Source: Streptomyces sp. CA-210063 (GTDB taxonomy: Bacteria > Actinomycetota > Actinomycetes > Streptomycetales > Streptomycetaceae). Taken from it: DNA of 64,000 nt. Below the pieces are notes generated by a model. That model saw nothing but the letters and a program-made list of their open reading frames with translations. It did no database searches and was not told the origin of the DNA. The position numbers and the translations under genes are program-made. Where the stretch lies: NCBI RefSeq assembly GCF_024612015.1, contig NZ_CP102512.1, positions 1,116,001-1,180,000 of the forward strand, in the 5' to 3' direction. Shown piece after piece: positions 52,504 through 62,939 of the stretch (the stretch's first letter is position 1; every line of letters starts with the position of its first letter).

Positions 52504-52517
52504 TAAATCGATCTAGT
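52504..52517. promoter_or_regulatory. shared operator TAAATCGATCTAGT, site 1
   Basis: Quasi-palindrome centred on ATCGAT, ending 16 bp before the ATG of the first demethylase-like gene. Identical 14-mers lie at 61887-61900 and 62926-62939. Its position near the start codon fits repression. Confidence 0.8.
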
Positions 52518-52533
52518 GGCAGGTGGGATGGAC

Positions 52534-53889
52534 ATGAGCGCGCGGCAGCGCAGTACGTACGAAGCAGCACTCCGGCTGCGTGAGGCGCCGTTCGTGACTG
52601 AGCGTCCACCGCTGTTCAGTCCGGCCGTCGCCGCCCAGGACGCGGCAAACACACGAGGCGCTTTCGGTCACTTCGCCCAGACCCTTCTGCCGCTGGAGTA
52701 TTCGAACTGGGTCGAAGAAAGCGCCGCCCATGTCCGGTCCTGCTACGTCGGCGACTGGACCCCTTTGCACAAGGTGAGGATTCACGGGCCTCAGGCCCTG
52801 GAATTCCTCGGCCGCCTGGGCATGAGGGATCTCTCCCGTTTCGAGACGGGCCGGATCAAGCACCATGTCCAACTCGACGAGAACGGCTGGGTCGCCTCCG
52901 AGGGCGTGTTGTGCCGCCTCGGCCCTGAGGAGTTCGTTTACACCGCCGGAAGCTGTGACTGGCTGCTGTGGCAGCTCGGCCAGGGCGGCTGGGACGCCGC
53001 GGCCACCGACATCAGCCCGGATGTGTTCATCTTCGGCGTCCAGGGACCCGCGTCCCTCTCCGTGCTGGAGAAGACCACCGGAGACGACCTTCGGGACGTC
53101 GGCTTCAGCCGCAGCAGGATGTCGCAGGCCGGCGGGGTCCCGGTGCGCGTGCTGCGGACCGGGATCTCGGGCGAGCTCGGATACGAGCTGCACGGTCCGG
53201 CCGAGCATGCGAGCACAATCTGGTCGGCTGTCGTGGCGAGCGGCCAGGACTTCGGCATCCGTCAGCTCGGTCTCCGGTCACAACCCGTGCAACACATCGA
53301 GGCCGGCATCGCCACCAACGGCCGGGACTACCTGCCGGCTTCCATCCTCACGCCCGGCGCGCCGCGGCAGTTCCGCAGAGGCACGCCCGGTGGCAGTTTC
53401 GTTCCCGTCAGCGGAGTGAGTGATTATTTCCGCAAGCCCAGCGAACTGGGCTGGGGGTTCCGCAAGGGCATACCCGGACGGGATTTCATCGGCCGTGACG
53501 CGCTGGTCAGAGACGTCGAGAGCGGAGCTCCGGGACGGGTGTTGGTAGGCCTGCGGTGGAACGGGCACGACGTCGGCGCCGTCCTGACGTCGTTGCTGGG
53601 CGACGATGACACACCCGATCAGATGGAACTGCCCCGATCGGCCGCTCCCAGCTTCGACCAGGTCCTCCTTTCCGGTGATCCAGTGGGTGTGTCCACTGGA
53701 CGGACGCTGAGCGTGGCACTGCGAGCGATGATCTCCCTCTGTGTGATCGATCCCGCTCACGCCGCTCCGGGCACCGAGGTGACCGTCCTGTGGGGACGGC
53801 CCGGAACCGCGCAGCGGGAGATCCGGGCGACCGTGTCCAACCTGCCCTTCAAGACGGACAACCGTCGGACCGAGGTCAGCAAGCTCTGA
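52534..53889 (+). CDS. GcvT-fold THF-dependent methyltransferase/demethylase-like protein
   Basis: 451 residues. The ATG at 52534 has AGGTGG seven bases upstream; a GTG and an ATG a few codons earlier are poorer. The fold is that of glycine-cleavage T protein, DmdA and LigM: WTPLHKVRIHGPQALEFLGR, then HHVQLDENGWVASEGVLC, then GISGELGYELHGPAEHAS. A region near residue 290 reads GVSDYFRKPSELGWGFRKG and FIGRDALV. The C-terminal barrel is ISLCVIDPAHAAPGTEVTVLWG. It should pass a methyl (or C1) group from a substrate to tetrahydrofolate. The substrate is unknown. Shared operators tie it to the LigM-like gene at 60.5 kb. Confidence 0.8.
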   Translation: MSARQRSTYEAALRLREAPFVTERPPLFSPAVAAQDAANTRGAFGHFAQTLLPLEYSNWVEESAAHVRSCYVGDWTPLHKVRIHGPQALEFLGRLGMRDLSRFETGRIKHHVQLDENGWVASEGVLCRLGPEEFVYTAGSCDWLLWQLGQGGWDAAATDISPDVFIFGVQGPASLSVLEKTTGDDLRDVGFSRSRMSQAGGVPVRVLRTGISGELGYELHGPAEHASTIWSAVVASGQDFGIRQLGLRSQPVQHIEAGIATNGRDYLPASILTPGAPRQFRRGTPGGSFVPVSGVSDYFRKPSELGWGFRKGIPGRDFIGRDALVRDVESGAPGRVLVGLRWNGHDVGAVLTSLLGDDDTPDQMELPRSAAPSFDQVLLSGDPVGVSTGRTLSVALRAMISLCVIDPAHAAPGTEVTVLWGRPGTAQREIRATVSNLPFKTDNRRTEVSKL

Positions 53890-54296
53890 CGAAGGCTGCT
53901 GACGCGACCCCCTCCGCCTCTGCGGGCCGAACCGGTTGCGGCCACGGCCGTGACGGTGAGGCCCGCCACGAGCGATCTGCGCGCAGCCGGCTGAGACCGC
54001 ACGGGAGGTGCTCCGGCGGTAACACTGCCGCCGGGCGGCATGGCGTCTACGGATCGGCTCATGGGCGGCACTTTCCTGTGGCTCACTGGGAGTGAGCGTC
54101 GCGCGAGATGAGCCCATGGCTGCGGGGTGGAGGGCTCCCCTGTTGCTTCCGCGCTGTACCACGGCGCCCACCAGTTACGAGGTCTCCACCACGCGGTACG
54201 AATCAGTTGTGCAGGCAGCGCAACCCGCGATACCCAAGTCGTCGGTGCGATCGAACGCAAAGAGGCCGCGTCCATCGGTCCCATACCATCCAGGAC
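53890..54296. other. intergenic region with a possible truncated minus-strand gene start
   Basis: 407 bp. On the minus strand an ATG at 54060-54062, after AGGAAAG, opens MSRSVDAMPPGGSVTAGAPP followed by RRSLVAGLTVTAVAATG, like an N-tail and first hydrophobic segment. It then runs into Arg/Gly-rich noise. It may be the stub of a transporter once divergent from tetR; evidence is weak. Nothing else is visible. Confidence 0.25.
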
Positions 54297-54932
54297 ATGG
54301 CGACCGCACAGAGAATGACAGCGACGGACCGGCGACAGCGCATCGTGCGGGCGGCCGGGGAGCTGTTCATCCTGCGCGGCTACACCGGCGTCTCCATGGA
54401 GGACGTCCTGGCAGCGGTGGGCGGGTCGAAGGCGACCCTCTACCGCTACTTCGCCGACAAGAGCGCGCTGTTCCGCGCCGCCGTGGAGGCGTTGTGCGAC
54501 GAATGGTCGGGGCCGTTGCACGCCTTCTCGCCGGGTGGCGACAACCTCGCCGACAACCTGGTGGCGCTGGGCGAGCACTTCGCCTCCCTGGTCCTCAGCC
54601 CCCAGGCCATCGCCCTGCACCGCCTGGTGACCGCCGAGGCCGAGCGCATCCCAGGGCTGGGGGATGTGTTCTCCGAGCATGGGCCGGCCGCGGGGCACGC
54701 GGTCCTCGGGCGCTGCCTGGAGCAGGCGTGTGACGACGGCCTGATTGAGGTCGCGGACCCGGTTCGAGCGGCGGCGCAGCTGTACCAGGCCATGCTCGGT
54801 GACGCCCAGATGCGGCTGCTGACGAATGCTCCGCGCAAGCTGAGCCAGGAAGAGGTGCGCGCGTCCATCGTGGAGGCGGTGCGCGTCTTCCTGCACGGAG
54901 TGTCCGTCCCACGCGGCGGCGGCCGGGTATGA
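54297..54932 (+). CDS. TetR-family regulator, likely controlling the THF-demethylation island
   Basis: 211 residues from the ATG at 54297 with AGGA close by. The helix-turn-helix is YTGVSMEDVLAAVGGSKATL followed by YRYFADKSALFRAAV. The C-terminal domain (LADNLVALGEHFASLVL onward, about 90-205) resembles the AefR-like TetR C-terminal family. It lies within the island and is the only TetR gene near three identical TAAATCGATCTAGT sites, so it is the best candidate to bind them. No copy of the site is seen before the gene itself. Confidence 0.85.
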   Translation: MATAQRMTATDRRQRIVRAAGELFILRGYTGVSMEDVLAAVGGSKATLYRYFADKSALFRAAVEALCDEWSGPLHAFSPGGDNLADNLVALGEHFASLVLSPQAIALHRLVTAEAERIPGLGDVFSEHGPAAGHAVLGRCLEQACDDGLIEVADPVRAAAQLYQAMLGDAQMRLLTNAPRKLSQEEVRASIVEAVRVFLHGVSVPRGGGRV

Positions 54933-55093
54933 CGCCGGGCTTCCCGGCCGCCGACCCGAGAGGCGTGTGCGGGTTTCTTTGCAGTCGGGGCCTTGTCGCT
55001 GCGGTGTACTGAACCGTACCGTACGGACGTTCCGCCAGCATTGTGTGGCGACGACCACGCGAGCAAACCCCGTATCGCACGGAGGGAAGGCCG

Positions 55094-61851: not shown

Positions 61852-61886
61852 GCGGCTCCTTCTTTGAAGATGGTCCATCCCGTAAC

Positions 61887-61900
61887 TAAATCGATCTAGT
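61887..61900. promoter_or_regulatory. shared operator TAAATCGATCTAGT, site 2
   Basis: Identical to the sites at 52504 and 62926. It lies 36 bp upstream of the ligM-like start and 43 bp after the folP stop, in the right place to control the demethylase operon. Confidence 0.8.
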
Positions 61901-61942
61901 ACTCGTGCCGAACATTTCTCGCCAGACGTCCGGCCACTCGCT

Positions 61943-62842
61943 TCACGCGGCCGACAGGGCTCGGCCGCCACCGGTCAAGGCCGCGGCCATGCACACCGCA
62001 TGGAGGCTCGAGCGGACATCGTGCACGCGCACGCACGCCACCCCGGCGGCTGCCGCGAGCGCGGACACGGCGGCCGTCGCGACGTCCCTGCCATGAGGTG
62101 CGGACACACCATCCGTACAGCCGCTCAGGACCTCCCCGATGAAACGCTTCCGGGAGGCGCCCACGAGGACCGGGAAGCCTGCGGCCTGCAAGGCCTGCAG
62201 GTTCGCGAGGATCCGCCAGTCATGGCCGGCATTCTTGGCGAAGCCGAGGCCGGGGTCGAGGATGATGCGCCCGGGGGCCACCCCGGCGGCGGTGAGCGCG
62301 TCCACACGCGCCAGAAGCTCGGAGACGACCTCGCCCACCACATCGCCGTAGATCGCATGGCGGTCCATCTCGCGGCTCGGCGCCCGCCAGTGCGCGGCGA
62401 TGTAAGGAACTCCCGCCGCAGCGACAGTGGCCGCCATGGCCGGGTCGGCGAGGCCCCCGCTGACGTCGTTGACCAGGCATGCCCCGGCTTCTACCGCGGC
62501 CTGCGCGACCTCGGCGTGCATGGTGTCCACACTGACGGGCACCCCGGCACACACCAGTTCCCGCACCACGGGGACCACGCGGGACAGTTCCTCCTCGACC
62601 GGGACCGGTTCGGCTCCCGGCCGCGTGGACTCCCCGCCCACGTCGACGAGGTCGGCGCCCTCTCGGGCCATCCGCAGACCGTGCTGGACGGCCCGCCGGG
62701 TGACGACGTACAGGCCGCCGTCGGAGAAAGAGTCCGGAGTCACATTGAGGATGCCCATCACGAGGCATCTTCCGGGCTGCGGGAGACTGTCGGGAAGTCC
62801 GGGTGACAGTCGCACGGCGGACCGGGGTTCCATGTCGATCAC
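61943..62842 (-). CDS. folP: dihydropteroate synthase (additional copy)
   Basis: 299 residues from a GTG at 62840-62842 with GGAGGAGG nine bases upstream. Both family signatures are intact: MGILNVTPDSFSDGG and DLVDVGGESTRPGAEPV. Further motifs are VSVDTMHAEVAQAAV, NDVSGGLADPAM, DPGLGFAKNAGHDW and LVGASRKRFIGEVL. It joins p-aminobenzoate to the pterin, the step after PabB's product is converted to pABA. It heads the minus-strand run of C1 genes with its own copy of the shared operator upstream. Reduced sulfonamide sensitivity could be a side effect, but nothing in the motifs indicates it. Confidence 0.94.
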   Translation of the reverse strand: MIDMEPRSAVRLSPGLPDSLPQPGRCLVMGILNVTPDSFSDGGLYVVTRRAVQHGLRMAREGADLVDVGGESTRPGAEPVPVEEELSRVVPVVRELVCAGVPVSVDTMHAEVAQAAVEAGACLVNDVSGGLADPAMAATVAAAGVPYIAAHWRAPSREMDRHAIYGDVVGEVVSELLARVDALTAAGVAPGRIILDPGLGFAKNAGHDWRILANLQALQAAGFPVLVGASRKRFIGEVLSGCTDGVSAPHGRDVATAAVSALAAAAGVACVRVHDVRSSLHAVCMAAALTGGGRALSAA

Positions 62843-62925
62843 GTGCAGGGACCTCCTCCGCCGCAGGCCGACGGCCCGCGCGCTGGAAGCTAAATCAATA
62901 CGGCAGACATGTTACAGAGGATTGC

Positions 62926-62939
62926 TAAATCGATCTAGT
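62926..62939. promoter_or_regulatory. shared operator TAAATCGATCTAGT, site 3
   Basis: Lies 83 bp upstream of the folP start. A weaker TAAATCAATA begins at 62891, about 35 bp away, and could be a second half-strength site. Confidence 0.8.

Follow-up and report, generated by a model that had tools for sequence, protein, structure and literature searches.

In actinomycetes, the aerobic removal of O-methyl groups is generally attributed to Rieske and P450 enzymes. Tetrahydrofolate (THF)-dependent O-demethylation with a MetF under a repressor is known from Sphingobium SYK-6, where the methyl-THF made by LigM is oxidized by a methylenetetrahydrofolate reductase (MTHFR, MetF) and the two enzymes substitute for glycine cleavage (PMC12585457). 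According to the available part of PMC6888825, SYK-6 uses MetF, FolD and the formyl-THF synthetase LigH, and ligM-metF-ligH form one operon under DesR. In Agrobacterium fabrum, the accessible text of PMC7797058 describes a THF-dependent demethylase and a MetF-like gene with a dedicated regulator (Atu1420/Atu1418), and the dicamba demethylases Dmt, Dmt50 and Dmt06, described beside LigM and DesA in the accessible part of PMC9404685 and compared here by description, catalyze the same type of reaction. Actinobacterial versions have been predicted: the accessible portion of PMC9296663 reports DesA-like aminomethyltransferases in actinobacterial metagenome-assembled genomes (MAGs), with the catalytic tyrosine kept and with metF and ligH in MB2.64. 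Here we analyzed a window of 64,000 nucleotides from Streptomyces sp. CA-210063 (positions 1116001–1180000 of contig NZ_CP102512.1, a 10.86-Mb single-contig genome); positions inside it are numbered from its first letter, and kilobase figures beyond it are contig coordinates. It carries a folate one-carbon (C1) gene set with two GcvT-fold proteins, GcvT1 and GcvT2, which is probably one copy of a duplicated, palindrome-marked island that would strip the methyl group of a methoxylated aromatic onto THF and recycle and replenish the folate.

The core of the locus is a run of six consecutive minus-strand genes encoding FolP (dihydropteroate synthase, 61943..62842), GcvT2 (60505..61851, labelled LigA in the analysis), MetF (59465..60337), PurU (formyl-THF deformylase, 58560..59468, above its NCBIfam cut-off and overlapping MetF by 4 bp), FolD (methylene-THF dehydrogenase/cyclohydrolase, 57453..58316) and a PabB-like aminodeoxychorismate synthase component I (56256..57320; alternative start 57401; best NCBIfam model below cut-off). 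Encoded on the plus strand are GcvT1 (52528..53889), a TetR-family regulator and a MetE-like protein. An earlier sequence-only reading had listed these nine genes and the six-gene run; gene calling and Pfam and NCBIfam profiles confirmed all of them in place. The starts taken here are ATG 52528 for GcvT1 (453 aa, as in most relatives; the gene caller chose 52594) and GTG 62842 for FolP (the gene caller chose 62758).

Homology assigns GcvT2 to the THF-dependent O-demethylases of the LigM/DesA family. In the PDB it matches LigM best (E 1e-93, full length), with 40% identity over 443 aligned positions, and its NCBIfam scores are 397 bits for DesA, 383 for LigM, 62 for GcvT and 45 for the dimethylsulfoniopropionate demethylase. 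In a maximum-likelihood tree of 54 rows, which includes 8 of the 26 related loci introduced below and no DmdA row, the GcvT2 clade (11 rows, support 100/100) sits among the LigM and DesA rows; the ordinary GcvT, represented by a home-genome row above the GcvT NCBIfam cut-off, and three oxidase-type rows occupy the opposite side (100/99), all of them long-branched. The LigM clade itself also takes in rows from an Amycolatopsis and from two MAGs, one of Streptosporangiaceae and one of Solirubrobacterales. As a separate observation, the Micrococcales rows L041 (Microbacterium sp. BR1), L044 and L048 are sister to the GcvT2 clade and share its Ile122, with Ala29.

For the active site we adopted the LigM residue numbers and roles as we take them to be. 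His60, Glu215, Tyr247 and Trp256 are kept in 11/11 rows of the GcvT2 clade. Position 29 is Trp in all 11, and position 122 is Ile or Val in all 11 (Trp29 and Ile122 in GcvT2 itself), whereas LigM rows have Tyr29 and Arg122 and a row above the DesA cut-off has Asn29 and Arg122. Arg122 of LigM presumably contacts the substrate carboxylate, and Tyr29 the substrate; since the former contact is changed, the substrate of GcvT2 is likely non-carboxylated. GcvT2 is thus predicted to carry a methyl group from an aryl methyl ether to THF, and its separate clade and altered positions mean that vanillate and syringate are not the best guess for its substrate.

The MetF of the window shares 144 of 278 aligned residues with 7xg9, which Foldseek names as the SYK-6 methylenetetrahydrofolate reductase (51%); the next structure reaches only 24%, and this difference (51–52% versus 24%) marks it as SYK-6-type. 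Its divergent type explains a score just under the Pfam MTHFR cut-off (22.3 versus 24 bits). By analogy with SYK-6, this MetF is predicted to oxidize methyl-THF, and on paper the route from methyl-THF through methylene-THF and formyl-THF to formate and THF is complete. The last C1 step is unlike that of SYK-6, because the island ends in the deformylase PurU and SYK-6 in the synthetase LigH. Because GcvT2 belongs with LigM/DesA and lies beside a SYK-6-type MetF, the locus is best read as a THF route in an actinomycete. The sequence-only reading had proposed an actinobacterial version of the SYK-6 pathway, which is supported for the family of GcvT2 and the type of MetF and not for the last step and the substrate; its description of LigH as PurU-like was mistaken, LigH being a 10-formyl-THF synthetase in the available part of PMC6888825.

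A locus scan kept 80 loci of 119 relatives found. Among them are 26 related loci, defined by a match 57–89% identical to GcvT2 and counted as loci, not genomes (two come from one Trebonia). LacI, MetF and PurU genes are each present in 24 of these, FolD in 19, PabB in 14 and FolP in 12, some contigs ending early, with TetR in 9, GcvT1 in 7, the MetE-like gene in 5 and FolE in 2. That the same set recurs beside GcvT2 relatives indicates that it is more than a chance assembly. The cassette is found in further Streptomyces and, with variations, among other actinomycetes. The 41 actinobacterial loci of other clades contain MetF (28), FolD (22), PurU (19), PabB (12), FolP (10) and a class III extradiol dioxygenase (17), and 14 loci (13 non-actinobacterial ones and L038, from an alphaproteobacterial MAG) have none of the folate synthesis genes searched for, several of their contigs being short. 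On a Rhodococcus opacus DSM 44186 plasmid (L096), genes for a Mur ligase, PabB, a demethylase, MetF, PurU and FolD stand together in a cluster that also encodes a class III extradiol dioxygenase, an aldolase, FolP and formate-dehydrogenase-type proteins; a Croceicoccus plasmid combines a MetE-like protein, dihydroneopterin aldolase, FolD, PurU, MetF and a DesA-like protein. LigM-type enzymes are sporadic in the genus, with a match (E 1e-60) in at least 21 of 392 genomes, at least 14 of them having one at least 70% identical to GcvT2. With the paralog LigB as query, a LigM-type match was found in at least 13 of 396 genomes of the phylum; at most four candidates were scored per genome, and the genus and phylum counts are lower bounds.

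The upstream regions share the palindrome RCTARATCGATYTAGY, with little information beyond 16 bp across 71 sites. Because these sites were selected with the motif itself, the information within the 14 chosen positions is partly circular; the outer two positions and the fall-off beyond them are not. The window contains three copies, one with a single mismatch 12 bp from the GcvT1 start codon (52503..52516) and two exact ones, 35 bp from the GcvT2 start (61886..61899) and 83 bp from the FolP start (62925..62938); shuffled sequences gave a mean of 0.08 copies and never three. The bounds chosen in the sequence-only reading, 52504 and 62939, nearly coincide with the outer two copies, which it did not mention. 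In the home genome, all six exact sites lie in the island, as do nine of the ten with up to one mismatch if a site before a second GcvT1 gene (1311660) is included, and 24 sites were found with up to two mismatches versus 6 for the reversed control pattern. At this last threshold, island sites lie before GcvT1, GcvT2, FolP and two LysR genes; LigA2 has two such sites, FolP2 two weak ones and the divergent LigD/LacI2 pair three, and no gene starts within 350 bp of a further weak two-mismatch site (1197112).

At the one-mismatch limit, 23 of the 26 related loci carry a site, each having one before the demethylase, compared with none of the other 54; allowing two mismatches in the 16-mer changes these counts to 24/26 and 1/54. 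A site precedes FolP in 9 of the 12 loci with that gene, and GcvT1 in 4 of the 7 with a full GcvT1, plus L025, in which GcvT1 is cut. The loci without a LacI gene (L038 and L042) have no site at one mismatch, and in the third related locus without one (L033) the contig begins at the demethylase. Among 61 relatives including the home genome, the 16-mer with up to one mismatch occurs in 7 genomes and the reversed control in 1. Four of the six non-home genomes hold a GcvT2-type gene: in G011 and G014 all five sites precede a GcvT2-type gene or GcvT1, in G784 a pair of sites separates a GcvT2-like gene from a LigB-like one, with a third on C373, and in G787 the site is beside LacI and MFS genes, with the GcvT2-type gene on another contig. 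In G785, from another genus, an exact site (L182 6270–6285) precedes a LysR–extradiol–aldehyde dehydrogenase–FAH operon, a second lies between LacI and MFS genes and a third is at 3172235.

The palindrome has a central CG, a mark of LacI-type operators, and it recurs before co-functioning genes in loci that contain a LacI gene, all of which suggests that it is likely a LacI-type control site. Its presence before both the demethylase and a folate gene implies that cofactor supply would switch on together with substrate breakdown. The TetR-family protein (54315..54932, plus strand; AefR-like C-terminal domain), previously named as the dedicated regulator, is less well supported in that role than LacI, since LacI is found in 24/26 related loci versus 9/26 for TetR and the palindrome goes with LacI.

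The island was also described as self-contained, yet it runs tens of kilobases past the window and is duplicated. Gene calling over 1098–1265 kb revealed the FolP–demethylase–MetF–PurU–FolD–PabB cassette again at 1208505–1214880, in the opposite orientation and 30 kb away, and FolE (GTP cyclohydrolase I) at 1186554–1187159, outside the window. With an E-value limit of 1e-31, a home-genome search picked up seven members of the wider family, GcvT2 among them. GcvT2 has copies at 1209.6 kb (83% identity) and 1215.0 kb (LigD, 65%); LigB (1185.1 kb) and LigC (1206.4 kb) are 40% and 38% identical to it, and GcvT1 and the second GcvT1 (1312.0 kb) 32–33%. The ordinary GcvT and a distant oxidase-type protein match GcvT2 more weakly. 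Genome-wide, FolP has four matching places and FolD four strong ones plus a fifth, weak match; for each gene, two of the four belong to the island. MTHFRs number five, three canonical and two divergent, so the island FolP, FolD and MetF are extra copies. In LigB and LigC all six of the LigM residues compared are intact and the profile scores are higher (DesA/LigM bits 554/516 and 553/503), which makes them the better candidates for vanillate and syringate. Beside them we noted LysR and TetR genes (1185127–1189994 and 1202076–1207781), an arrangement partly kept in L022, L026 and L040, and a metallo-beta-lactamase-fold protein with a twin-arginine-like start (1188837 and 1202076), which is found in 9 of the 26 related loci.

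The stretch at 1219–1237 kb encodes an extradiol-like VOC protein, aldehyde dehydrogenases, a FAH-family protein, an alpha/beta hydrolase, an amidohydrolase, a thiamine diphosphate (ThDP) enzyme, an L-2-hydroxyglutarate oxidase and a ribose-type ABC transporter; the families of the amidohydrolase and the ThDP enzyme were assigned from their copies at 1192–1195 kb. The Ldh2–ThDP–amidohydrolase genes are likewise duplicated (1190998–1194641 and 1219189–1222931). PDB searches with the amidohydrolase and ThDP proteins returned no close relative. On plasmids, the extradiol-like and ThDP proteins had only distant, generically named matches among the best 15 of 180 and the best 15 of 879, respectively.

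The two GcvT-fold proteins had both been read as demethylase-like, which holds for GcvT2 and not for GcvT1. The GcvT1 clade (9 rows, 100/99) branches between the outgroup and the LigM/DesA group, and in 9/9 rows it has Gln at position 247, where LigM has its catalytic tyrosine, Ile at 256 and no His60. GcvT1 scores 162 bits against LigM (cut-off 580) and 176 against DesA (cut-off 800). We rejected it as a LigM-type demethylase, given the absence of the catalytic Tyr in all nine rows and a clade outside LigM/DesA. Its AlphaFold model is poor (mean predicted local distance difference test score 59.7), and the best PDB match, LigM, reaches a template modeling score of ~0.43 and so adds little. 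A check against LigM, DesA and DmdA profiles suggested by the sequence-only reading did return DesA and LigM as the best models for both proteins, with no equivalog cut-off reached and DmdA weak (NF009133, cut-off 410 bits; GcvT2 45, GcvT1 72); the suggested phylogeny separated GcvT2 from the glycine-cleavage and sarcosine types and left GcvT1 outside the LigM/DesA group.

GcvT1 nonetheless travels with demethylases. Among the 392 genus genomes, a relative (E 1e-80) occurs in at least 15; in at least 13 its identity is 60% or higher, and in two it is 40–41%. All 13 of the former, and neither of the latter, are among the at least 21 with a LigM-type protein (hypergeometric 3e-19, a value that ignores shared ancestry); among the candidates scored, eight LigM-type genomes lack a GcvT1 match. 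Four of these 13 genomes have a LigM-type protein whose identity to GcvT2 is just 38%, which ties GcvT1 to the wider family. This distribution indicates that GcvT1 is co-inherited with the demethylases, and it would be a relative with a rebuilt active site that carries out some other step.

Taken as a pathway, GcvT2 would demethylate an aryl methyl ether with THF as the methyl acceptor, MetF would convert methyl-THF to methylene-THF, FolD would take this to formyl-THF, and PurU would release formate and THF, with FolP, PabB and FolE enlarging the THF pool. A LacI-family repressor would sit on the palindrome until released by substrate or product. The demethylated product would probably be a catechol, with the type I extradiol-like enzyme of the 1227–1233 kb operon opening its ring. 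The alphaproteobacterial locus L038 has a demethylase of the GcvT2 clade (57–58%) near an amidohydrolase (65%), a ThDP enzyme (49%), an extradiol-like protein (45%) and a FAH-family protein (35%), with a TRAP-type transporter also seen nearby by eye. Aligned with BphC, whose residue roles are as we take them to be, the extradiol-like protein of the island retains two ligand residues, the second His and the Glu, along with two other His; aligned with 3b59 it keeps the first His, and the L038 protein has the same five motifs. Together with the operator before the extradiol operon of G785, this context and these motifs suggest ring opening of the demethylated product.

Several observations weigh against this scheme. 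GcvT2 falls far below the equivalog cut-offs for LigM (NF047885, 383 versus 580 bits) and DesA (NF047633, 397 versus 800 bits), and the positions of Arg122 and Tyr29, presumed substrate contacts of LigM, are altered. An extradiol-like gene lies within the fetched flanks in only 3 of the 26 related loci, one of them 31% identical (L027), and the home genome has no site with up to two mismatches before its own extradiol operon. The binding of LacI to the palindrome is inferred from co-occurrence. The tenth home-genome site with up to one mismatch lies elsewhere (9344205); L042, without LacI, has two weak sites at two mismatches, and one of the 54 other loci has one. G785, with its palindrome-marked extradiol operon, and G013, with a single one-mismatch site, have no GcvT2-type gene at E 1e-40, and thus the motif is not always about demethylation. 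LacI regulators and a nearby ribose-type ABC transporter would also fit a sugar-like substrate.

This last point leads to a demethylase acting on a non-aromatic methyl ether, such as an O-methylated sugar or cyclitol. The LacI partner in 24/26 loci, the Peripla_BP_4 and BPD_transp_2 transporter genes at 1233–1237 kb and the altered residues 29 and 122 would all suit it, but LigM, DesA, Dmt, Dmt50, Dmt06 and Atu1420 all act on aryl ethers as far as the accessible descriptions go, and extradiol-type genes stand behind the palindrome in G785 and near the demethylase in L038; we consider this quite improbable. A higher, though still low, likelihood attaches to the vanillate/syringate pathway of the sequence-only reading, with both GcvT-fold proteins as LigM/DesA equivalents, which we regard as unlikely. 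DesA and LigM are indeed the best NCBIfam models for both proteins, the LigB-like genes at 1185 and 1206 kb keep the six LigM residues and score high, 17 of the 41 other-clade actinobacterial loci have a class III extradiol dioxygenase, and the palindrome pair of G784 lies between GcvT2-like and LigB-like genes. Against these stand the Trp29/Ile122 of GcvT2 (both positions changed in 11/11 rows), the loss of His60, Tyr247 and Trp256 in GcvT1, and the failure of either to reach an equivalog cut-off. Moreover, LigM-like residues are found in two paralogs beyond the window, LigB and LigC, the best candidates for those substrates, and neither has a palindrome with up to two mismatches directly in front.

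The island might instead supply C1 units and methionine from methyl ethers, with the MetE catalytic-domain-like protein (371 aa, 55094..56209, plus strand), a possible methyl acceptor branch, as the main acceptor. Such a gene stands beside the cassette, recurs in 5/26 loci and by the DesA-like cluster of the Croceicoccus plasmid, and in SYK-6 LigM and MTHFR do replace glycine cleavage (PMC12585457). PurU, however, which would discard the formyl group as formate, is present in 24/26 loci versus 5 for the MetE-like gene, and the genome has a GcvT above cut-off and three canonical MTHFRs, leaving assimilation a slim chance. We give almost no credence to GcvT2 and GcvT1 being glycine-cleavage or sarcosine/dimethylglycine-type enzymes: they have the GCV_T domain in common, but the tree sets the GcvT2 clade apart from the GcvT and oxidase rows and neither protein carries an extra Pfam domain, for example for flavin adenine dinucleotide. 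The tree rejects this identity for GcvT2 and is less decided for GcvT1.

The preferred reading, THF-dependent demethylation of an aryl methyl ether, resembles the SYK-6 system in some respects and departs from it in others. The demethylase family, the MetF (51–52% identity) and the use of FolD are alike (PMC12585457 and the available part of PMC6888825), and in the latter source the demethylase and MetF are also under a dedicated repressor with inverted-repeat sites. The island differs in its separate demethylase clade (Trp29, Ile/Val122), in PurU instead of LigH, in the folate synthesis genes within the cassette and in a LacI-style palindrome in place of the MarR-type DesR sites described in the available part of PMC6888825. 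The A. fabrum system has a GntR-type regulator and belongs to a ferulate pathway, with no folate synthesis genes named in the accessible text of PMC7797058. The R. opacus plasmid resembles the island in uniting PabB, demethylase, MetF, PurU, FolD and FolP in one locus, but its demethylase is of another clade (His122), its MetF is 24% identical, its extradiol enzyme is of class III, and the locus has no palindrome with up to two mismatches. Relative to the MAGs in the accessible part of PMC9296663, compared by description, the folate-synthesis cassette, the duplication and the operator are found in the island only. The contrast with the Rieske route drawn in the sequence-only reading is weakened by two VanA_C (Rieske) proteins in the home genome and by the actinobacterial THF-type predictions already in that source.

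The separate clade, the folate synthesis genes in the same regulon, the operator and the co-inherited GcvT1 appear new; in literature titles and abstract openings, with few subscription papers among them, we recognized no description of a folate-synthesis-linked O-demethylase regulon or of this operator. The fuller proposal, that a LacI regulon ties THF synthesis (FolP, PabB, FolE) to a new demethylase clade for non-carboxylated methoxyaromatics while GcvT1 performs a new THF-dependent reaction, we advance tentatively, at somewhat short of an even chance. An oxygen-independent folate route controlled by a dedicated regulon would alter the way in which methoxyl carbon from lignin is followed through Streptomyces, and it would be a clear example of catabolism supplied with cofactor synthesis of its own, co-regulated with the cofactor-using enzyme. 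The operator makes the pathway testable, as it marks the genes to measure in the 23 loci that bear it, and GcvT1 poses a defined enzyme puzzle that accompanies demethylases across genomes.

Some neighboring features and minor observations complete the picture. Next to FolP, a minus-strand Lrp/AsnC-family regulator (63473..64000, extending past the window to 64441) is also near FolP in L017 and L018. Upstream, window positions 47116–50014 contain a 471-aa open reading frame (ORF) and a 238-aa ORF with a P-loop KGGTGKTT, ParA-like by eye; neither has a Pfam match at 1e-5, and they may be left over from a plasmid or integrative element next to the island. A tRNA-Pro (CGG) gene at 36136–36234, upstream of the island, is a possible integration site for mobile DNA. 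Elsewhere in the genome, a class III extradiol-type protein and a VanA_C Rieske protein, encoded some 2 kb apart (9837681 and 9840681), possibly mark a separate, conventional demethylation locus. Finally, a plasmid of the archaeon Halobellus limi (L139, 3420–10504) encodes two LigM-family proteins, one of them beside a MetF-like gene.

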